DNA from: a candidate division WWE3 bacterium RIFCSPHIGHO2_02_FULL_38_14
Lineage (GTDB): Bacteria > Patescibacteriota > WWE3 > UBA101185 > UBA10185
Reading direction: 5' to 3'
NCBI GenBank assembly: GCA_001772865.1
Contig: MEVD01000006.1
Span: 1 to 35,171 of the forward strand
DNA length: 35,171 bases
Part shown: piece by piece, positions 23,140-33,295 of the stretch
Layout: every line of letters begins with the position of its first letter
Position numbering within the stretch: the first letter of the stretch is position 1
Notes under the pieces: model-generated
Seen by the model: only the letters and a program-made list of their open reading frames with translations
Told to the model about the DNA's origin: nothing
Databases searched by the model: none
Program-made: the position numbers and the translations under genes

Positions 23140-24189
23140 TCACTCTTTGCACATTGACTGAACAAGTCCCAGCAAAATTAAAGAAGAAAATAATGAACTT
23201 CCGCCATAAGATACAAAAGGAAGCGTTATTCCTGTAACAGGTAACATTCCCAAATTCATACCAACATTTACAGTGTACTGAAACATAAACACGAAAAATA
23301 CTCCGATTATTAAAAGGCTCTTAAATGTAGTATTAGCTTTTTTGCTCAAATAAAGAATATAAATCAGGAAAAACATATATATTAAATTAAAAATTACTAT
23401 TCCGATAAACCCCCATTCTTCGGCAAAAGAAGCGTAAATAAAATCCGTCCAAAAAACGGGCAGAAAGCCCAAATGAGATTGAGTTCCCATTTCAAACCCC
23501 TTTCCCATAAATCCACCCGATCCAATAGCTATTAAAGATTGAGTTACATTATAACCAGCGCCTAAAATATCAAGTGAGGGGTTTAAAAACACAAGTACTC
23601 TCTTTTTTTGATAATCCTGAAGTAAACTCCAAAACGGAGATGACAATAATCCTAGAACTATAAAAGCACCTACAAAAAAATATTTGCTTAATCCCGCATA
23701 AAAAAGCAATCCTATAACTACTACAAAAAGAACAAGAGCACTTCCCAGATCCGGCTGAATCAGAACCAAAATCACTATAAGTAACGACATTAAACTCACA
23801 TTTAGCATTTTTCGGGCTGAATTAATATTTTTAGCGTTTGAACAAATTAAAGCCGAAAGTGAAATTATGAGGGAAATCTTTGCAAACTCCGAAGGCTGAA
23901 TCACAAAAGTACCGATTTTTATCCAACTGGATGAACCGTACTTTTCTATTCCCAAAAGCAGTGTAATAGTAAGAATTACAAATGTAGGAAAATAAAATGC
24001 TTTCCAATATTTAAAGAATAATTCTGACGGTGCAGCGGAAATTAAGATATATAACAAATATCCTATTATAAAATAAACGAGCTGGTTTTCAGCCAGTTCT
24101 TTGTGAGTTGACCTAAGAGTGATATAACCAATCGAAAATAATAGAATCGGAAGAATTAATAAAGGTAGATTAAGTTTTCGTATAAACAC
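23140..24189 (-). CDS. rodA: Rod-shape SEDS glycosyltransferase RodA
   Basis: 349 residues with about ten membrane helices. SEDS family motifs are present: QPSEFAKI, QPDLGSALV, the extracellular loop with AEEWGFIG, and PVTGITLPFVSYGGSSL at the end. RodA polymerises peptidoglycan glycan strands with a class B PBP during elongation. A second SEDS protein (FtsW) lies in the dcw cluster, which supports the RodA assignment here. The start is GTG with TAAAAT 5 nt upstream. It follows the adenosyltransferase gene by 11 nt. Confidence 0.92.
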   Translation of the reverse strand: MFIRKLNLPLLILPILLFSIGYITLRSTHKELAENQLVYFIIGYLLYILISAAPSELFFKYWKAFYFPTFVILTITLLLGIEKYGSSSWIKIGTFVIQPSEFAKISLIISLSALICSNAKNINSARKMLNVSLMSLLIVILVLIQPDLGSALVLFVVVIGLLFYAGLSKYFFVGAFIVLGLLSSPFWSLLQDYQKKRVLVFLNPSLDILGAGYNVTQSLIAIGSGGFMGKGFEMGTQSHLGFLPVFWTDFIYASFAEEWGFIGIVIFNLIYMFFLIYILYLSKKANTTFKSLLIIGVFFVFMFQYTVNVGMNLGMLPVTGITLPFVSYGGSSLFSSLILLGLVQSMCKE

Positions 24190-24194
24190 TCATC

Positions 24195-24200
24195 ATTTTA
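24195..24200 (-). promoter_or_regulatory. -10-like element of rodA
   Basis: TAAAAT on the minus strand, 5 nt before the GTG at 24189 and abutting the stop region of the preceding gene. It may give rodA an independent leaderless transcript. Confidence 0.3.
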
Positions 24201-24767
24201 TCATTTCATCCATATGGTTTCTTCAATTTTTGCCGATTTGTTAATATATCTTGCCAGTACAAATAATAAATCCGACAACCTGTTTAAATATTTTATTACT
24301 GGTGTAAGTTCGTTCATTTTTCTTATTTTTATTTCCCTTACTAAACTTCTTTCAGTTCTTCTGCATACAGCTCTGGCAATGTGAAAATATATTGCCATTA
24401 CATCTCCTGAAGGCAGAATAAAGTTTTTCAATTCCGGCAGTTTTCCATTAAAATCATCAATAAAAGATTCCAGCTCTTTTACTTTTTCATTGTAATATTT
24501 AATTTCTTTAATTTTCTCTTTTTTCTTCGAGGAAGCTATTAAAGCACCTAAATTAAAAAGCTCACGTTGAATTTTTATTACAATATCTTTAATACTTTTA
24601 TCCGAAAAATGGGGAACACCGCGTGAATAGGTAAGTCCAAGAATAGAATTTAATTCATCCAGATTTCCTAATATTTCAAAGATATTTTCAGATTTAAAAA
24701 ACCTCCCGCCAAAAAGGAGAGAGGTTTCGCCGTTATCTCCGGTCTTTGTGTATATTTTTGCACCCAT
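24201..24767 (-). CDS. Cob(I)alamin adenosyltransferase, PduO type
   Basis: 188 residues from the ATG at 24767; a TTG three codons upstream overlaps the nrdJ stop. The ATP-binding start KIYTKTGDNGETSLL, the DELNSILG segment, RAVCRRTERSLV and YLNRLSDLLFVLARY are typical of PduO-type adenosyltransferases. The enzyme makes adenosylcobalamin from reduced corrinoid and ATP. It follows nrdJ by 2 nt, so the two are made together. NrdJ needs exactly this cofactor, so the pair is functionally coherent. No B12 synthesis genes are in the window; salvage is inferred. Confidence 0.95.
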   Translation of the reverse strand: MGAKIYTKTGDNGETSLLFGGRFFKSENIFEILGNLDELNSILGLTYSRGVPHFSDKSIKDIVIKIQRELFNLGALIASSKKKEKIKEIKYYNEKVKELESFIDDFNGKLPELKNFILPSGDVMAIYFHIARAVCRRTERSLVREIKIRKMNELTPVIKYLNRLSDLLFVLARYINKSAKIEETIWMK

Positions 24768-24769
24768 AC

Positions 24770-27256
24770 TTAACAAACGCTAAATCCGCATTCAATGCAT
24801 TTTGAGCACCCTTCCTGCTGTATCAAAGATGAATTTCCGCACTCCGGGCACATATTTATATACGAAAACACCGACACTTCTCTTTTATTCTCTTCCACTA
24901 AATTGCTTCCGTTAGATCTAATCTGCACACCATATTCTTCTGCCAATACTTTGGCAACAGCATCCGGCACCGAGCTTACCCTTTTAGCTCCAAAACCCAC
25001 GGACCGGGCGCCTCCAATTCCTATAAGCTGAACAACAATTTCCTTTAGAGTTTTTAATTTATCATTCGAACCTCTAAGCCATCCAGAAATCAATCTTCCC
25101 AACGCTTCAGATAAAGCTGTTACGTCGCTTCCTGCTTTGCCTACGTTGGCGAATACTTCAAACGGGCTTCCGTCATCATTTTTATTAATTGTTATAAATG
25201 CCCTTCCCTGCGGAGTCAATACTTTGTAAGTAGTTCCGCTTAATTTATAAGCTCTGTCCATAGATTTTATGAATTCAGATTCGACAACAACATTACTCGG
25301 TTCTGATAATCCCTTTTTATCTTTAGTTTCTTTGGTTTCCAGAACAACCTCCTGCCTGGTCCCGGTTACATAAACCGTTAATCCTTTACATCCCAGCTCC
25401 CATCCCAACATATATGCTTTTGCTACATCGTCAATTGGAGCATTTTCCGGAAAGTTGCATGTTTTTGAAATAGAATTATCTATAAAAGTCTGAATAGATG
25501 CTTGAAGTGTAACGTGCTCTGTTGGTGTTATATCTGCCGAAACCACAAAGACATTCCTGATTCTTTCAGGAAGCTCTGGTACATTTTGACATGTACCAGT
25601 CTGAACTACTTTTTCAATTATTCTTTTCCGAGTTTCGGAATCATACCCAAGTTTAGTAAGGGCTTCTTCAAAATAAGGACTTACATAAGTAAGAGTTAAA
25701 GTGCCTTCATCTCCTGCAGCCTGATAAACATTGCGTAAATAAGCTAAAGCGAACGCTGGTTCACAACCATACCCCTCTACTCCGGCAACTGTAGAAATGG
25801 TTCCGGTTGGAGCCATGGTAGTTTGAGCACCATTTCTTATGCCATGCAGTTTAATTCCGTCAGTTATTAGATCCCAGTCAAGTCTTGGCCTGCCGAAATC
25901 TCTGCTGTAAAGTTTTAAAGGAATAGGCGGTTCCCATCTTAAATTCTCCGGATCGTAGATACTTCCTTTAATTTTTAAAAACGGACCGCGCTCTTCTGCC
26001 AATGCAATTGATGTTTTCATAGAGTGGTATCTCATAAACTCCGACACTTGAGCTGCAAATTCATTACCTTCGTCACTTCCGTATCTGATACCCATGGAAT
26101 ACATCGCATCAGCCAAACCCATGATACCAAGTCCGATCCTTCTGACATTTTCTGCGGCTTCTTTTAACTCAGGAACTACCGGTATGTATGTGTTTGCTGT
26201 AACTACATTATCAAGAAATCTGGTTGATAATTCGATTACGTCCTGATACAGGTCCCAGTCCAGTAAACCGTTTTCATCAAGCAATTCATTTAAATTAATT
26301 GAACCTAAGCAGCAGTTTTCGTAAGGTCCCAGCCACTGTTCGCCGCAAGGATTTGTGGCTTTAAGTTCATACATATGAGGAACAGGATTAGTACGATTGG
26401 CGGCATCAATAAACAACACACCCGGTTCTCCGTTTTTATAAGCATGCTGAACAATCAAATCAAATATTTCTCTGGCTCTGGGAGTTTCGACTACTTTTTT
26501 GGTATGCGGGTCTATTAATTCATAAGAAGTGTCATCCTTCACCGCTTGCATAAAAACATCTGTCACTGCTACAGAAATATTAAAGTTTGAAATTGCGCCC
26601 TCTTTTTCCTTGCACTTAATAAATTCTCTTATATCCGGATGGTCAACCCTTAAAACTCCCATATTCGCGCCTCTTCTGACACCTCCCTGAGCAACCTCAC
26701 CGAACGATGTATCATAAACCTTCAAAAATCCAATCGGACCGGTAGCCGACCCATTGCTGGAAGACACTATTGAACCTTTGGATCTCAAATCGGAAAAAGA
26801 AAATCCGTTCCCTCCACCGGATTGCTGAATCAACGCTGCTACCCTTAATGTAGAAAAAATACCGTCTTTGCCTTTTCCCAAATCGTCAGCAATAGGAAGT
26901 ACAAAACAGGCAGCCAACTGCCCAAGAGGAGTACCGGCACCCGTAAATGTAGGAGAATTCGGAAAAAACTGCTTCTGCGATAAAAGATTATAAAATTCTA
27001 TTTTAGAGGTTTCTACATCTCTATAAGGTCTGTCCGGTTCTGCAACAACACGGGATATTCTTTCAAACATCTCCTCAGGGGTTTCAGCTACCACCCCACT
27101 GTCGTTTTTTCTTAAATATCTTTTCTCTAAAATTTTTCTGGAATTATCTGTAAACTTAATATTTTTATTTTTTTCTAATCTTATAGGGGATCGTGCAGTA
27201 GAAAGTTTTAAGCCTAACGAGTCGGAACTACTTCCGGACGAATTAATCCAGTTCAT
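24770..27256 (-). CDS. nrdJ: Adenosylcobalamin-dependent (class II) ribonucleotide reductase
   Basis: 828 residues. It reduces ribonucleotides to deoxyribonucleotides using a radical from adenosylcobalamin. The thiyl-radical cysteine is C304 with N302 and E306 in TNPCGEQ. C117 (AACFVLP) and C315 are the likely redox pair. [10 protein letters not shown] and [12 protein letters not shown] are conserved. There is no N-terminal ATP-cone. The C-terminus carries a zinc-ribbon-like Cys tail ([13 protein letters not shown], final C828), as in related NrdJ enzymes. It needs no oxygen and no separate radical subunit. The ATG has no SD; a strong hairpin ends 3 nt before it. An in-frame TGA six codons upstream rules out an extended start. 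Confidence 0.97.
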
Positions 27257-27378
27257 AGAGCAGGGGAAGATTCATGAGACGACAACCTTCCACTGCCTGT
27301 GAAGATTGACGGCCCGTGAAGCTTTTTTTGAGAGCCAGCAATTGTTTAGACTTCCTAGCTAACAGTTAATTTATTACG
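27257..27378 (-). promoter_or_regulatory. Structured leader of nrdJ, possible regulatory RNA
   Basis: The predicted leader is about 122 nt. On the minus strand GCAGTGGAAGGTT pairs with AATCTTCCCCTGC (13 positions, one mismatch, one G-T) around an 11-nt loop, and the stem ends 3 nt before the ATG. Two upstream copies of CTTCAC can each pair instead with GTGGAAG in the 5' arm, so alternative folds compete. No SD is present. I cannot fit it to the cobalamin riboswitch core, but the B12-dependent enzyme makes corrinoid sensing a reasonable guess. Confidence 0.5.
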
Positions 27379-27384
27379 TCGTTC

Positions 27385-27414
27385 AATATAATCATAACCG
27401 CTTTATATGTACAA
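27385..27414 (-). promoter_or_regulatory. Candidate promoter of nrdJ
   Basis: TTGTAC (27414-27409), an 18-nt spacer and TATATT (27390-27385) on the minus strand. The start would be near 27378. Confidence 0.4.
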
Positions 27415-27578
27415 CTAACAATAATTGAGATATTCCCATTTTTAATAGTTATTTTAGGAGAAATAAAATGAATGTACCAATATATATTCGAACAATATAT
27501 TATTTCAATATTTACCTTTAGCTCTATTAATATCGGTAATTGAAACGGAATTTAAAACATTAAAATCTTATATATAAC
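27415..27578. other. AT-rich remainder of the nrdJ-ftsZ gap
   Basis: The gap between nrdJ and ftsZ is 322 nt. Besides the nrdJ leader and promoter I see very AT-rich sequence without a clear ftsZ terminator. On the plus strand AGGAG precedes an ATG at 27468 that opens a 17-codon frame ending at 27521; it may be chance. Confidence 0.4.
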
Positions 27579-28718
27579 TTATTTTCCTCTTAAAAATGCT
27601 GGAATATCGTATTTAGTGTCTGAATCGTCCGTAAAATCCTCCGGCTTCCATGCCGGCTTTTCCGGCTGATCTTCTTTTAATGGTGCCTGTTGTTCGGCTT
27701 CCTTCTTTTCCTCTTTGCGAACTTCATATGAGATAGGAAGACCCAGCTTGCTCCTCATTTCTCTGCTGTTGTCAAAACCGGTTGCAATAACAGTAATTTT
27801 AATCTGGTCATTCATATTCTCATCTATTGTGGTTCCGAATATAATATTTGCATCAGGACTCGCCAATCCTCTGATTATTTCAGCTGCTTCGTCTACTTCC
27901 TTCATAGTCAAATCAGCGCCGCCTATTACATTAAATAATATCCCGGTAGCTCCTTCTATTGAAACTTCCAACAATGGAGACGAAACGGCAGCTTTCGCTG
28001 CTGTCGAAGCTCTTCCATCACCACTTCCGATACCTATTCCCATTAAAGCGGAGCCTGCGTCTTTCATTACAGCACGGACATCGGCAAAATCAACATTTAT
28101 TAATCCGGGCATAACTATTAAATCCGAAATTCCCTGCACACCCTGATTTAAAATGCTGTCCGAAACTTTAAAGGCATCCATAACGGTCATTTTTTCATCT
28201 GCTATTTCAAGCAATTTTTGGTTCGGAATTACTATTAAGGCATCAACTTCTTTTTTTAGATTTTCTATACCTATCTCAGCATTTTGCATTCTTTGTGCGC
28301 CTTCAAATTTAAATGGCTTGGTTACTACTCCGACAGTTAACGCCCCTAATTCGCGTGCTAAGCGGGCTATTGTAGGTGAAGCACCCGTTCCCGTACCGCC
28401 TCCCATACCTGCCGTAACAAAGATCATATCTGAACCTTCCAGATTAGACTGAAGAAGCTCCATGGACTCCTCAGCAGCTTTTTTGCCTATATTAGGATCG
28501 GATCCGGCACCAAGTCCGTTAGTAATATCTTGTCCTATAGGTATTTTGATGAACGCTTTATTAATTGAAAGTGCCTGGGCATCAGTATTTACAGCAATAA
28601 ATTCCACGCCGGAAATCTGCCCGGAGTTAATCATAGTGTTGATAACATTACATCCCGCACCTCCAACACCGACAACTCTAATTTTTGCAAATCTTTCTAT
28701 TTCAGGTTTTACTAGCAT
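27579..28718 (-). CDS. ftsZ: Cell division GTPase FtsZ
   Basis: 379 residues. The tubulin signature GGGTGTG (106-112) and the T7 loop NVDFADV with D210 and D213 are intact, so GTP hydrolysis is expected. After the globular domain comes a charged linker (about 318-362), then the conserved C-terminal peptide DIPAFLRGK, which binds FtsA. It is last in the cluster, 186 nt after ftsA, with its own candidate promoter. No SD is visible. Confidence 0.98.
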
Positions 28719-28746
28719 ATAAGTTAAATGAACAGCTTACAAACTT

Positions 28747-28774
28747 ATAGTATTAATAAGCTAAGTATTAGCAA
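28747..28774 (-). promoter_or_regulatory. Candidate ftsZ promoter overlapped by an inverted repeat
   Basis: TTGCTA (28774-28769), a 16-nt spacer and TACTAT (28752-28747) on the minus strand. The inverted repeat TAAGCT (28757-28762) / AGCTTA (28774-28779) spans the spacer and touches the -35. Confidence 0.45.
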
Positions 28775-28789
28775 GCTTAGAAAATACTA

Positions 28790-28815
28790 CTATCATATAC
28801 TAATTTTGATGATAG
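28790..28815. repeat. Inverted repeat in the ftsA-ftsZ gap
   Basis: CTATCAT (28790-28796) and ATGATAG (28809-28815) are perfect 7-bp complements around a 12-nt loop. A further CTATC-type half-site (CTATCG) lies a little beyond, near 28830. It may end the ftsA transcript or bind a regulator of ftsZ. Confidence 0.45.
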
Positions 28816-28904
28816 CACTTTTTCCTTACTATCGTTTGGAAATGAGCCGCTAAACAAACATTTCCTTTTACAGGTCCGGAAAAGAAAACTATTGAAATCT
28901 ATAG

Positions 28905-30176
28905 TTAGGGCAGAAATGATTTTAATTTTTCAATAATTTTACTGAATACTGAATTCATCTTACCGCGTCCGGTGTCAAAATTCAACATCGTATTGCTTTT
29001 CATTTTTCCTACTCCATATAATACTGCACCGACCGTGGCAGAATATGCAGGTCCCTGAATTTCATCTATAAGTCCAGTTACTCCCCTCGGAAAACCTACA
29101 CGTACCGGCATTTTCATAACAGCTTTCGCAACTTTTTCAACACCAGCCGTTAAAGCTCCTCCTCCTGTTACTACTAAGCCGGCTGGTAGTTTACCTTGCA
29201 AGTTAGCTTTATTAATTTCTAAAACAATTAATCTAAAAATTTCATTAAGTCGTGCATCGATAATTTCGTATAATAATTTTTTATGAACAGTATCTGATTC
29301 CAGACCAAATTCCGAAACATCAAATTCTTCCATCTTTTTGCGGTCACCGTTGGTTAAAACTGCTGTTTGTATAAACATCTCCTGTTTTTCATTGCTCAGC
29401 TTTATTTTTATTTTCTCTGCATCTTCAAGCCTTGTTCTTAAACCGATAGCAAGGTCATTCGTTATATACCTTGCACCTATAGGCAGCACTCTTGAATATA
29501 TCGGACTTCCTTCCAGAAAAGCTACTATCGAAGTAGTGCCGCCTCCGATATCAACCAGAACGGTTCCCAATTCTTTTTCAGTATCGGTAAGCACGGATTC
29601 GGCAGAAGCAATTCCGATATAGACAAGGTCGTCAACTTGTATTCCTACTTGGGAAACACATTTAATTAAATTTTTCATCGCCGTTGAAGATCCATGAATG
29701 ATATTTGTTTCAACTTCCAGACGTACTCCCGACATACCAATCGGATCTTTAATTCCGGCTTGTGAATCTACCATAAAATCCCTGGGGATTACATGGATTA
29801 TTTCTCTGGATGAAGGTATAGACACAGCCTGCGCGGCCTCAGTTACTCTTATAACGTCTTCTGTGGATATTTCCGAGCCTTGATGGGAAACGGCTACCAC
29901 GCCATGCGAATTTTGGGTTTCAATATGTGTACCGTTAATAGTAACCAGAGCAGATGAAATTGAAACACCAGCCATTCTTTCCGCCCGCTCTAAGCTTGAG
30001 GAGATTGATTCAACTGCTGCATCAATATCTACTACATTTCCTTTGCTTATTCCTTTAGACGGAACACTGCCCGAAACACCGATAATTGAAACTTTATTAT
30101 CCGTAACCGCCGCCACCGCCGAACTTATTTTTGTAGAGCCTATGTCGATACTAGTAATAAACTTTTCTTTGGGCAT
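28905..30176 (-). CDS. ftsA: Cell division protein FtsA
   Basis: 423 residues, actin-like ATPase that anchors FtsZ to the membrane. Phosphate-binding loops are SIDIGSTKIS at the start and VDIGGGTTS in the middle; the adenosine motif is TGGGALTAGVE. The 1C domain typical of FtsA lies between. The C-terminal amphipathic helix (FSKIIEKLKSFLP) would insert in the membrane. It follows ftsQ by 48 nt. The SD is weak: GAGGAAG lies about 20 nt upstream of the ATG. Confidence 0.97.
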   Translation of the reverse strand: MPKEKFITSIDIGSTKISSAVAAVTDNKVSIIGVSGSVPSKGISKGNVVDIDAAVESISSSLERAERMAGVSISSALVTINGTHIETQNSHGVVAVSHQGSEISTEDVIRVTEAAQAVSIPSSREIIHVIPRDFMVDSQAGIKDPIGMSGVRLEVETNIIHGSSTAMKNLIKCVSQVGIQVDDLVYIGIASAESVLTDTEKELGTVLVDIGGGTTSIVAFLEGSPIYSRVLPIGARYITNDLAIGLRTRLEDAEKIKIKLSNEKQEMFIQTAVLTNGDRKKMEEFDVSEFGLESDTVHKKLLYEIIDARLNEIFRLIVLEINKANLQGKLPAGLVVTGGGALTAGVEKVAKAVMKMPVRVGFPRGVTGLIDEIQGPAYSATVGAVLYGVGKMKSNTMLNFDTGRGKMNSVFSKIIEKLKSFLP

Positions 30177-30224
30177 AATAAAAATTATTTCTTCTTCCTC
30201 ATATTAATATAGAGGCAAAAGATA

Positions 30225-31013
30225 TTAATATGATACTATTACTTTATCATATCGTAAATCAATTCCCTTCACAGTTTTACCTGAAGAAGTTTCATTAACC
30301 AATACGTCTATAGCGGTTTCAATTGAAGTCTTCAAGTCTTTTTCCTGGGAAATAAATATTTCTATCCCGTTATTTAAATAAACTTTTGTATATCTGGAAG
30401 AAAAACTTAAACTGCTAACTTTCATATCCTTTTCATTAATAATAGACATTAATGTATTGTAAAAAGGAACTATGGTTCTATTTATAAATGTTCCTACTTT
30501 AATTTCCGAGTCGTACTGAATTTTGGGAAGATCCATAAATTTCTCACTTACAAATCCCAATACATATCCGTCTTCATCAACTAAATAATTATTTGAAGAA
30601 CCGTTTTCGTAAATTACTGCTAATGGTATTCTTTCTTTTATTTTCACTACTAACTTTGAAGGTAGATGTTTTTCGACGGAAATGGTTTTAATACCTAGAA
30701 AATTCTTTTCTGCTAAATCTGTGATCTTTTTCTTGTTCAAAGTAAATATATTCTTACCCATAACATTTGAACTGACAATTTTATATAGGTCTGTTTCATT
30801 CACAAATCTTTCAACACCGTAAATACTCAATTTATTGATTTCAAATGTTGATGAGTAGAAAAACTCATTTAGAACCAAGCCTAATATTAATCCGAACAAA
30901 CATCCAAATATTGCGGTTTTTAAATAATTTGTAAAAACTCTTTTAAATCCACCGATATCTCTTTTCTTTTTATTTTTGATAAATTTATTAAATACAATCT
31001 TTTCGGAAGGCAT
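30225..31013 (-). CDS. ftsQ: Cell division protein FtsQ/DivIB
   Basis: 262 residues. A basic cytoplasmic N-terminus (KKKRDIGGFKR) and a membrane helix (about 30-50) precede a POTRA domain (about 57-125, INKLSIYGVERFVNE...). The FtsQ domain (SVEKHLPSKLVVKIKERIPLAVI, then YLVDEDGYVL) follows outside the cell. The protein scaffolds the divisome. TAAAAT lies 6 nt before the ATG, so it may have its own leaderless transcript inside the cluster. Confidence 0.92.
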   Translation of the reverse strand: MPSEKIVFNKFIKNKKKRDIGGFKRVFTNYLKTAIFGCLFGLILGLVLNEFFYSSTFEINKLSIYGVERFVNETDLYKIVSSNVMGKNIFTLNKKKITDLAEKNFLGIKTISVEKHLPSKLVVKIKERIPLAVIYENGSSNNYLVDEDGYVLGFVSEKFMDLPKIQYDSEIKVGTFINRTIVPFYNTLMSIINEKDMKVSSLSFSSRYTKVYLNNGIEIFISQEKDLKTSIETAIDVLVNETSSGKTVKGIDLRYDKVIVSY

Positions 31014-31019
31014 TATTAT

Positions 31020-31025
31020 ATTTTA
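31020..31025 (-). promoter_or_regulatory. -10-like element of ftsQ (leaderless arrangement)
   Basis: TAAAAT on the minus strand, 6 nt before the ATG at 31013 and next to the murG stop. No -35 is evident. Confidence 0.35.
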
Positions 31026-31026
31026 A

Positions 31027-32148
31027 CTAAAGATACTTAAATACCAGATCAGTAATTTTAATTTCTGCGTCTTTAATTACATTAATGCTATTATCTTTTA
31101 TTTTGTAATCGTGAATATTTTTAAGCATATGCTCTACTTTTTGAATAAATATTTCGATTGAAAGATTTTTTTCCTCTATAATCTCGGCTAATCCGGCTTT
31201 CGAAACTACTTTTGCATTAACTAATTGCTCGTTATGGGATACCCAGGGAATCGGAATTAAAAGTGCGGGTTTTTCCAATGCGATAATTTCGCTTATGGTG
31301 TGGGCTCCCGCGCGGGATATAACCATACTACAAAGATTGAAAACCTCTCCTATTTCATCATCAAGCACAAATTTAACGGGAATATACTTGCCAGGTTGAT
31401 CTTTAAGGTTTTCCGCAATGATTTTTAGAGTATCATAATCCTTAAAATACGAGTGGTCACCGCACTGATGAATAATATTTACGATTCCTAGAATTTCCGG
31501 TAGAGAATCTTTAATTAATAAATTTATTTTATGAGATCCTGTTTTGCCGGCAGTCACATATATAGTCGGTAGACCGGAATTTACCTCAAATTTACTGCTG
31601 GATGACTTGAAAATCTCTTTTCTTAACGGTATGCCGGTTAATACTGACTTTTCCTTAGGATAAAACTTCTCCGATTCAGACCATGAAAGCATGATTTTCT
31701 TTGTAATTTTAGAAATCAATTTATTTGCGTAACCGGCAACCATTGTTTGTTCATGAGTGATTGAGGGTATCTTTAAAATATATCCTGCAATTATTACGGG
31801 AACTGCCAAGTATCCGCCAAATGATAAAATCATATTCGGCTTTATTTGAAGCAACAATATAAATGCCCGTAAAAATCCCAGAGGAATTTTTGCCAACCTA
31901 AAAACATTGTACGTTTTATAAAATTTACCTGCCTGTAGAGAAAAAAACTTTATTCCCATTCCGTTAATCTGTCTGAATTCCAAAGTGGTATTAATATCCC
32001 CCTTCATAGAGTACTTATGCCCGAACCAATATATTTCCACTTTTGGGTCTCTTCTCAATATTTCCCGAATTACAGGGATAGCAGAAGTGTGATGTCCGCC
32101 AGTAATTACAACTTTCTTAGATTTAGATTTAAGATTTTTTAGAAACAT
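31027..32148 (-). CDS. murG: UDP-GlcNAc:lipid I transferase MurG, divergent
   Basis: 373 residues from the ATG at 32148; a TTG five codons upstream is the alternative. GT28/GT-B fold enzyme that turns lipid I into lipid II on the inner membrane face. The N-terminal loop reads ITGGHHTSAIP where MurG usually has GGTGGHVFPG, so one Gly is lost but the His stays. The C-terminal half shows VTAGKTGSHKIN (usual GGSQGA-xxN), SRAGAHTISE (usual SGALTVSE) and SHNEQLVNA (usual QQ-xNA). The pattern is MurG, but more divergent than its neighbours. It overlaps ftsW by 20 nt. Confidence 0.88.
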   Translation of the reverse strand: MFLKNLKSKSKKVVITGGHHTSAIPVIREILRRDPKVEIYWFGHKYSMKGDINTTLEFRQINGMGIKFFSLQAGKFYKTYNVFRLAKIPLGFLRAFILLLQIKPNMILSFGGYLAVPVIIAGYILKIPSITHEQTMVAGYANKLISKITKKIMLSWSESEKFYPKEKSVLTGIPLRKEIFKSSSSKFEVNSGLPTIYVTAGKTGSHKINLLIKDSLPEILGIVNIIHQCGDHSYFKDYDTLKIIAENLKDQPGKYIPVKFVLDDEIGEVFNLCSMVISRAGAHTISEIIALEKPALLIPIPWVSHNEQLVNAKVVSKAGLAEIIEEKNLSIEIFIQKVEHMLKNIHDYKIKDNSINVIKDAEIKITDLVFKYL

Positions 32149-33295
32149 TTGCCAGTATTCCAAGCCCCATCATACCAAATAACATTGAAGAGCCGCCATA
32201 TGATATTAAAGGAATCGGAACTCCTGTCAAAGGTATAATTCTTGCCATAGCAGCAACATTTACAAAAAACTGAATTCCGAACCAAGTAGTGACCCCTACC
32301 GAAAGCATTCTTCCCAAATTATCACCGGCATTTTTAGCAGTTTCATATCCTCTATATAATAAAAAAGTAAATAATGCTATAACAAGCAAAGAACCTGCAT
32401 ATCCCATTTCCTCCCCGACTATTGCAAAAATAGAATCAGCGGATGTTTCAGGTAGATATTGAAATTTCTGCCTCGACTGCCCCAGCCCAACTCCCAAAAG
32501 TCCTCCTGATCCCAAAGCTATAGAGATTTGTTTTGAATGGTAGCTTTCTTCAGTCTCTTCATTCCCCGAAACTTTTATATATGATATTAGTCTTTCACGC
32601 CGGTAAGGCGACAATAACATAACTGTCAATCCCAGAACGGCAATTATCGGAATTATAATAAAAAGCTTCTTGATTCCCGCGCCTGAAGAAAAATATATTG
32701 CTGTACCTATAATAAAAACTATAGCAGCGGTAGACATATTCGGTTGCAGCAAAATCAAAAAAGAAAATAATGCTGTGGGAATAAAATAAATCCAAAATGC
32801 CTCATTTTTACTTCGATTTAAGTATTTCTCCAAATGAACTGATAGATATAAAACTAGTGAAAATTTCGCCAACTCAGCCGGTTGAAAGCCCAGCACACCT
32901 ATCAGAGGCACCTTTGGCAAAGGTTCCGGATTTAAATAAAACCATCTATTAGCGCCATTTAAACATGGAGTGAAAATAGTATTTTCCGAACAGGGAAATA
33001 TTCCCACAACAGCAAGGATAAACAGCAAAACCAGGCTTATTAAAAAAAGTATATACGCCGGCTTTCTGACGTTTGAATAATCTATTTTATAAAAATAAAT
33101 AAAACCGAGAGTTCCTAAAACAGCCCAGGCAATTTGCAAATAAGCAAATCTATATGCTTCTCCGAATGTTCCGTAAGAAAACACCGCCGTAGCGTCATAA
33201 ACCATAATTATTCCGAACAGCACTAATGCAAATATGGTACCGATAAGTTTTTTATCCGGAGTATAAACAGGCAAGTTTTTTATTTTTTTTCTCAT
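32129..33295 (-). CDS. ftsW: Division SEDS glycosyltransferase FtsW
   Basis: 388 residues with about ten membrane helices. SEDS motifs: GFQPAELAKFSLV, LQPNMSTAAIV, an extracellular loop with ADSIFAIVGEEMGYAG, and PLTGVPIPLISYGGSSM. The first extracellular loop is enlarged (about 100-140) and holds two cysteines (PCSEN, PCLNG) that could form a disulfide. A good SD (GGAGG) lies 11 nt before the ATG. It stands between mraY and murG, the usual dcw position, but murD is missing. Confidence 0.95.
   Translation of the reverse strand: MRKKIKNLPVYTPDKKLIGTIFALVLFGIIMVYDATAVFSYGTFGEAYRFAYLQIAWAVLGTLGFIYFYKIDYSNVRKPAYILFLISLVLLFILAVVGIFPCSENTIFTPCLNGANRWFYLNPEPLPKVPLIGVLGFQPAELAKFSLVLYLSVHLEKYLNRSKNEAFWIYFIPTALFSFLILLQPNMSTAAIVFIIGTAIYFSSGAGIKKLFIIIPIIAVLGLTVMLLSPYRRERLISYIKVSGNEETEESYHSKQISIALGSGGLLGVGLGQSRQKFQYLPETSADSIFAIVGEEMGYAGSLLVIALFTFLLYRGYETAKNAGDNLGRMLSVGVTTWFGIQFFVNVAAMARIIPLTGVPIPLISYGGSSMLFGMMGLGILANVSKKS

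Follow-up and report, generated by a model that had tools for sequence, protein, structure and literature searches.

What controls the gene for ribonucleotide reductase (RNR), the enzyme that supplies DNA building blocks, in a bacterium in which the usual RNR regulator is missing, and does the leader of that gene take part? In most bacteria RNR genes are controlled by NrdR, which senses nucleotides via its ATP-cone (PMC9110341). The window, by which we mean the whole 35,171-nt stretch of DNA that was analyzed, comes from a genome of ~941 kb in the WWE3/Katanobacteria group and carries the following genes:

24201..24776, minus strand: pduO-type cobalamin adenosyltransferase (PF01923, 172 bits), overlapping the end of nrdJ
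24773..27256, minus strand: nrdJ, a class II adenosylcobalamin-dependent RNR of 828 amino acids without an ATP-cone (TIGR02504, 637 bits, plus Pfam)
27579..28718, minus strand: ftsZ, the upstream neighbor of nrdJ, used for the species tree

The nrdJ-pduO pair lies within a division and cell-wall cluster (23140-32163, minus strand), with ftsQ-, ftsA-, and ftsZ-like genes upstream and an ftsW-like gene downstream, and this neighborhood was seen again in many relatives.

The gap of about 320 nt between ftsZ and nrdJ had drawn attention in an initial annotation made from the window alone, and the sequence elements described there are present in the leader. No SD precedes the nrdJ ATG (27256), as is normal in this genome, where a strict SD was present in 29 of 143 genes sampled from stretches of the genome as background. 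A stem, GCAGTGGAAG (27296-27287) with CTTCCCCTGC (27269-27260), adjoins the ATG, has one mismatch, and can be extended to about 13 positions. CTTCAC occurs twice on the minus strand, at 27321-27316 and 27304-27299. The 13-position stem is present in the minimum free energy (MFE) fold of the window leader, a leader that folds no better than shuffled sequence (z = −0.94). As a conserved structure, this stem did not survive comparison: its GGAAG/CUUCC half is unique to the window genome and absent from the leaders of relatives. Its 3′ arm is listed here for reference:

27260..27269, minus strand: 3′ arm of the earlier-drawn alternative stem (partner 27287-27296), a window-specific extension

We compared the leaders of NrdJ orthologues from 57 relatives, and the gap between ftsZ and nrdJ proved to contain a conserved hairpin whose parts in the window are as follows:

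27271..27320, minus strand: RNR-leader hairpin (P1, P2, and loop), ~50 nt, scored by covariance model R2 at 66.9 bits (E of 8e-16 in the genome)
27267-27324, minus strand: modeled region of the RNR-leader hairpin (R2)
27313..27320, minus strand: P1 5′ arm, UUCA-C-GGG, with a mismatch at C 27316 (alignments A1 and A2)
27310..27311, minus strand: 5′ side of a 2-bp CG step between two 1x1 mismatches (A2 columns 16-17 with 50-51)
27301..27308, minus strand: P2 5′ arm, CAAUCUUC, including part of the second CTTCAC copy (A2 columns 19-26 with 41-48)
27291..27300, minus strand: terminal loop, ACAGGCAGUG, containing GCAGU (27292-27296)
27283..27290, minus strand: P2 3′ arm, GAAGGUUG (A2 covariation)
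27271..27281, minus strand: 3′ side of the CG step, GGG partner, and P1, CG-U-CUC-A-UGAA (A2 covariation)

In full order the window hairpin reads UUCA-C-GGG-C-CG-U-CAAUCUUC-ACAGGCAGUG-GAAGGUUG-U-CG-U-CUC-A-UGAA, with the first CTTCAC copy in P1 and the second in P2. The initial annotation had described competing pairings; the one involving the second copy, CAATCTTC/GAAGGTTG, is helix P2, conserved and with very strong covariation, whereas the long stem drawn against it is specific to the window.

Pairing was scored in two alignments, A1 with 16 sequences and A2 with 19. In A1, 87.8% of cells were paired, versus 75.6% in shuffles, and 18 of the 19 pairs had at least one change on both sides; in A2 the values were 87.2% versus 74.0%, again with 18 of 19 pairs doubly changed, and 46 doubly changed cells, a level reached by 0 of 500 shuffles. 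These shuffles ignore relatedness (mean pairwise identity, 0.56), and the slid-register controls, which keep it, gave 41 to 54% paired cells for A1 and 42 to 55% for A2. Compensatory changes were found at every P2 pair (A2 columns 19-26 with 41-48), the CG step (columns 16-17 with 50-51) reads CG in 15 of 19 sequences and GC or GU in 17 of 19, and the loop GCAGU is invariant in all 19 aligned genomes. RNAalifold recovered the same hairpin unprompted. The covariation that had been suggested as a check on the 13-position stem is thus found in the arms of the hairpin, and the arms of the stem itself are not conserved. Along the nrdJ sense strand, G-U outnumbers A-C by 58 to 14 cells, so the constraint acts on RNA; the opposite strand scored 34 bits versus 67. 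We concluded from these alignments that a conserved, covarying RNA structure is present on the sense strand, as would be looked for in a structured cis-regulatory mRNA leader, and the earlier proposal of such an RNA at the nrdJ start codon is supported.

In the family leaders, the hairpin ends roughly 10 to 20 nt before the start codon. The window hairpin is followed by UCUUCCCCUGCUCU-AUG and not by the U run that follows the G+C-rich hairpin of an intrinsic terminator. Boxes resembling −10 elements are present before the hairpin, but at no consistent distance, and we propose no transcript start there. The likeness of the loop's CAGUG to an iron-responsive element (IRE) was also considered and rejected, the loop not being closed by an IRE stem.

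R2 found a single hairpin copy per genome. The hairpin precedes nrdJ in 17 of the 27 genomes of the WWE3/Katanobacteria family, and when the nrdJ leader of one genome (G003, L073) was held out, the model recovered it at 49 bits. Counting the copies before other enzymes described below, all 20 family copies precede an RNR gene, a constant placement that makes the hairpin specific to RNR genes. It was not found in other families of the class, nor at the NrdJ loci searched in Chloroflexota, Omnitrophota, and sister CPR families, and a search of 380 genomes of the phylum gave no credible match beyond the family. The sole outside hit is in G276, where the ends of two converging genes flank a perfect hairpin and there is no RNR; we attribute it to chance. 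Within the family, the four genomes of genus g15 have at best degenerate hairpins (L028 and L020, about 12 bits, in the right place), none was found in G009 or G001, and the G022 assembly, with neither ftsZ nor any RNR, is uninformative for the count. All these absences are soft, the genomes being mostly incomplete.

Three genomes of the family without this NrdJ carry the hairpin before another RNR, with 7 to 10 nt between its modeled end and the ATG. In G013 it precedes a class III nrdD (R2, 28.8 bits; E of 1.8e-4 per genome); the NrdD is complete, has an ATP-cone, exceeds the TIGR02487 and NF006126 cutoffs, and is followed by a radical-SAM NrdG-like activase. Neither a PF02867 RNR nor PduO was found in a search of this genome. 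In G018 (18.8 bits; E of 0.12 per genome) and G006 (21.7 bits; E of 9e-4 in a targeted 34-kb search) the scores by themselves are weak, and the matches rest partly on position, directly before an RNR start in both genomes. Both precede RNRs that we call RTPR-like, a naming tested only in G018, where it fell below the curated cutoff, and extended to the G006 protein by likeness. These two RNRs have an ATP-cone and lie directly after ftsZ, as in the window; no PduO was found in either genome (RNR loci L076 in G018 and L106 in G006).

In the FtsZ tree G013 is sister to the NrdJ-bearing G017 (100/97), so the leader was retained through a change of enzyme class. Three other genomes (G004, G008, and G016) have nrdJ away from ftsZ and keep the hairpin. 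Given the nrdDG and RTPR-like carriers and these displaced nrdJ genes, the hairpin tracks RNR function rather than B12 or the ftsZ locus. The B12 framing of the initial annotation is therefore not upheld, the same hairpin preceding a B12-independent class III RNR. One further NrdD was noted in G010 (L107), on a short contig (C65) with glutaredoxin- and dUTPase-like neighbors and without a hairpin; this contig is probably phage DNA.

NrdR has a pattern of its own. A match to it was absent from 19 of the 20 genomes with the hairpin; the exception, G010, has, besides its hairpin, a protein with a weak match to NrdR (60 bits versus a cutoff of 124.65). This divergent protein, at L108 817-1305 (C52), could be a working NrdR, a degenerate one, or a contaminant. 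Sister families of the class often have nrdR adjoining nrdJ, on its upstream side. Within the family, G009 (weakly placed in the FtsZ tree) lacks the hairpin and has NrdR immediately before nrdJ, and genus g15 and G001 have no NrdR and a hairpin that is degenerate or absent, so neither is strictly needed. The overall pattern fits a replacement of NrdR by the hairpin, as an association in the content of incomplete genomes and not as proof. NrdR and NrdR boxes give RNR-specific control across RNR classes, tied to nucleotide status (PMC9110341), and in this the hairpin would resemble them; unlike NrdR, which is a protein acting on DNA, it is an RNA, and its bearers are almost all without NrdR.

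How might the hairpin act on the start codon? One part of the leader, beyond the hairpin, is relevant:

27259..27263, minus strand: CUGCU (CUGYY), 2 nt before the AUG, able to pair with loop GGCAG (27293-27297)

CUGYY lies at or within a few nucleotides of the AUG in 9 of 20 leaders, from nine genera, versus 0.76 expected from shuffles; the background in the window genome is 6 of 143 genes, with the window nrdJ included. The motif occurs as CUGCC, CUGCU, CUGUC, and CUGUU, and this YY variation keeps the pairing with the loop GG via G-U. In G010 and G018, where the loop is UGCAG, four pairs with CUGYY remain. The linker of 3 to 7 nt is short relative to the closed stem of about 20 bp, so the GGCAG/CUGYY pairing excludes P1; a classical H-type pseudoknot with P1 intact was rejected on the same ground, such a linker being too short to span the stem. 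In the other genomes, the MFE fold is more stable than the sequestered state by about 3 to 16 kcal/mol. The window genome is the only one in which GGCAG/CUGYY grows into a long stem rivaling the hairpin in energy, and only there is the alternative (state B, −20.8 kcal/mol) the MFE fold. As judged from these leaders, the long competing stem of the initial annotation is a window-specific extension of the GGCAG/CUGYY pairing. Mutually exclusive folds at the start codon thus stand in part: the loop pairing, in 9 of 20 genomes, is a plausible translational switch, and the full alternative stem is confined to the window. The other 11 leaders have no CUGYY before the AUG (that of G016 falls within the coding sequence). 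Pairing at the start codon therefore cannot be a mechanism common to all, and the loop must have another, more general partner.

Our main reading, to which we give a probability of roughly 0.62, is that the hairpin is a cis-acting leader RNA of the family's RNR gene that adjusts translation initiation. We infer that it would do so in response to a signal of RNR or deoxynucleotide (dNTP) status, in part substituting for NrdR. The exposed GGCAGUG loop would be the receptor for this signal, be it a small molecule or a protein. In the window and eight other genomes, one state would have the loop GGCAG paired with the CUGYY abutting the AUG, such that the start would be free when P1 is closed and could be covered when P1 is open. 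In this way the hairpin would stand in for the missing NrdR repressor.

A tentative possibility is that the signal is received directly, as in a nucleotide riboswitch in which dATP, another dNTP, or ATP would bind to the loop and the mismatched stem and so exert feedback on RNR synthesis. The hairpin accompanies RNRs of different classes, the protein that usually senses dATP/ATP, NrdR, is missing, the window NrdJ is without an ATP-cone, and an RNR-linked nucleoside riboswitch, 2′-dG-I, is known elsewhere (PMC8872408). However, a simple hairpin in which about 7 loop bases are strongly conserved would make a small aptamer for selective binding, and the RNRs of G013, G018, and G006 do carry ATP-cones.

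Also tentative is a protein-binding leader, in which a WWE3 RNA-binding protein would recognize the GGCAGUG loop hairpin, much as in ribosomal-protein or repressor-hairpin leaders. RNA hairpins bound by proteins usually combine an invariant loop with a stem that covaries and differs in sequence, and this is the arrangement here, with one hairpin and a loop conserved in 19 of 19 genomes. Against it, there is no candidate protein, and autoregulation by the enzyme is unlikely, given that the hairpin precedes three RNR types. These two readings, nucleotide and protein, both overlap our main reading and could be two ways of receiving its signal. In its most specific form, which we regard as doubtful, an RNA dNTP sensor would have taken over the job of NrdR in Katanobacteria, controlling whichever RNR class is present (II or III) via one small hairpin and representing a new class of deoxynucleotide riboswitch (for dATP or the dNTP pool) at SD-less starts.

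It is unlikely that the hairpin is constitutive and serves only for mRNA stability or for positioning the ribosome at a start that lacks an SD. The scarcity of strict SDs in this genome and the closeness of the hairpin to the AUG would suit such a role, but it leaves unexplained the invariant loop, the single copy per genome, and the tie to three RNR types. A sensor of adenosylcobalamin or another cobamide, matching nrdJ and pduO, is improbable: most hairpin copies do precede nrdJ-pduO, and RTPR is likewise an adenosylcobalamin enzyme, but the G013 copy precedes nrdDG in a genome lacking a detected PF02867 RNR and PduO, G018 and G006 are without PduO, and no cobalamin family was matched. We consider dNTP status a likelier signal than adenosylcobalamin. 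A DNA operator palindrome for a transcription factor would agree with the near-palindromic sequence and the 34 bits of the opposite strand, but is very improbable given the one-strand excess of G-U over A-C, the asymmetric loop conservation, and arms that diverge while keeping their pairing.

The leader RNA that we favor was also compared with known families. Cobalamin riboswitches (RF00174, RF01482, and RF01689) often precede B12-related genes, nrdJ among them, and have a multi-helix core with a kissing loop. Unlike these, the hairpin has no multi-helix core, matches none of the models, and is not restricted to B12-related genes. The 2′-deoxyguanosine-I riboswitch is a three-way junction of the purine-riboswitch type. 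In Mesoplasma florum it resembles the hairpin in being a leader RNA ahead of a gene for an RNR subunit (PMC8872408), whereas the consensus here is one hairpin that does not conform to the three-way-junction purine model. The Rfam nrdJ RNA motif, reported in Streptomyces (PMC8388888), is likewise an nrdJ-associated RNA with a candidate cis-regulatory role; unlike it, our hairpin also precedes nrdD and RTPR-like genes and is confined to WWE3.

The window and 17 further loci gave no Rfam match at gathering or relaxed E values, the nrdJ motif included, and this agrees with the initial annotation, which could not fit the leader to a cobalamin riboswitch. A 19-bit match to freshwater-2, on the other strand and elsewhere, was set aside as chance. 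By model search, which tests membership and not ligand, the hairpin is outside the cobalamin, 2′-dG, and Rfam nrdJ families. We found no report of it in the literature searched; subscription papers were mostly outside that search, and an earlier report is possible. On sequence grounds, the best reading is that it works like a translational leader or riboswitch and is a previously uncatalogued RNR leader RNA. That one hairpin was kept with RNR genes through exchanges of enzyme class, with NrdR missing, suggests that in a major uncultured lineage DNA-precursor synthesis is under RNA control. The question of what replaces NrdR becomes testable in vitro with a 60-nt RNA and could bring to light a riboswitch of a new class or a novel RNA-binding regulator.

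Two minor observations concern individual nrdJ loci. The nrdJ match of G003 (L032) is in two pieces, with an in-frame TGA listed in the first, possibly reflecting an alternative code, a sequencing error, or a broken gene. The nrdJ leaders of G001 and genus g15 (L016, L017, L018, L020, and L028) have an extra GGCAG(U/C) upstream, after an AT-rich −10-like stretch, which is possibly a rearranged form of the element.
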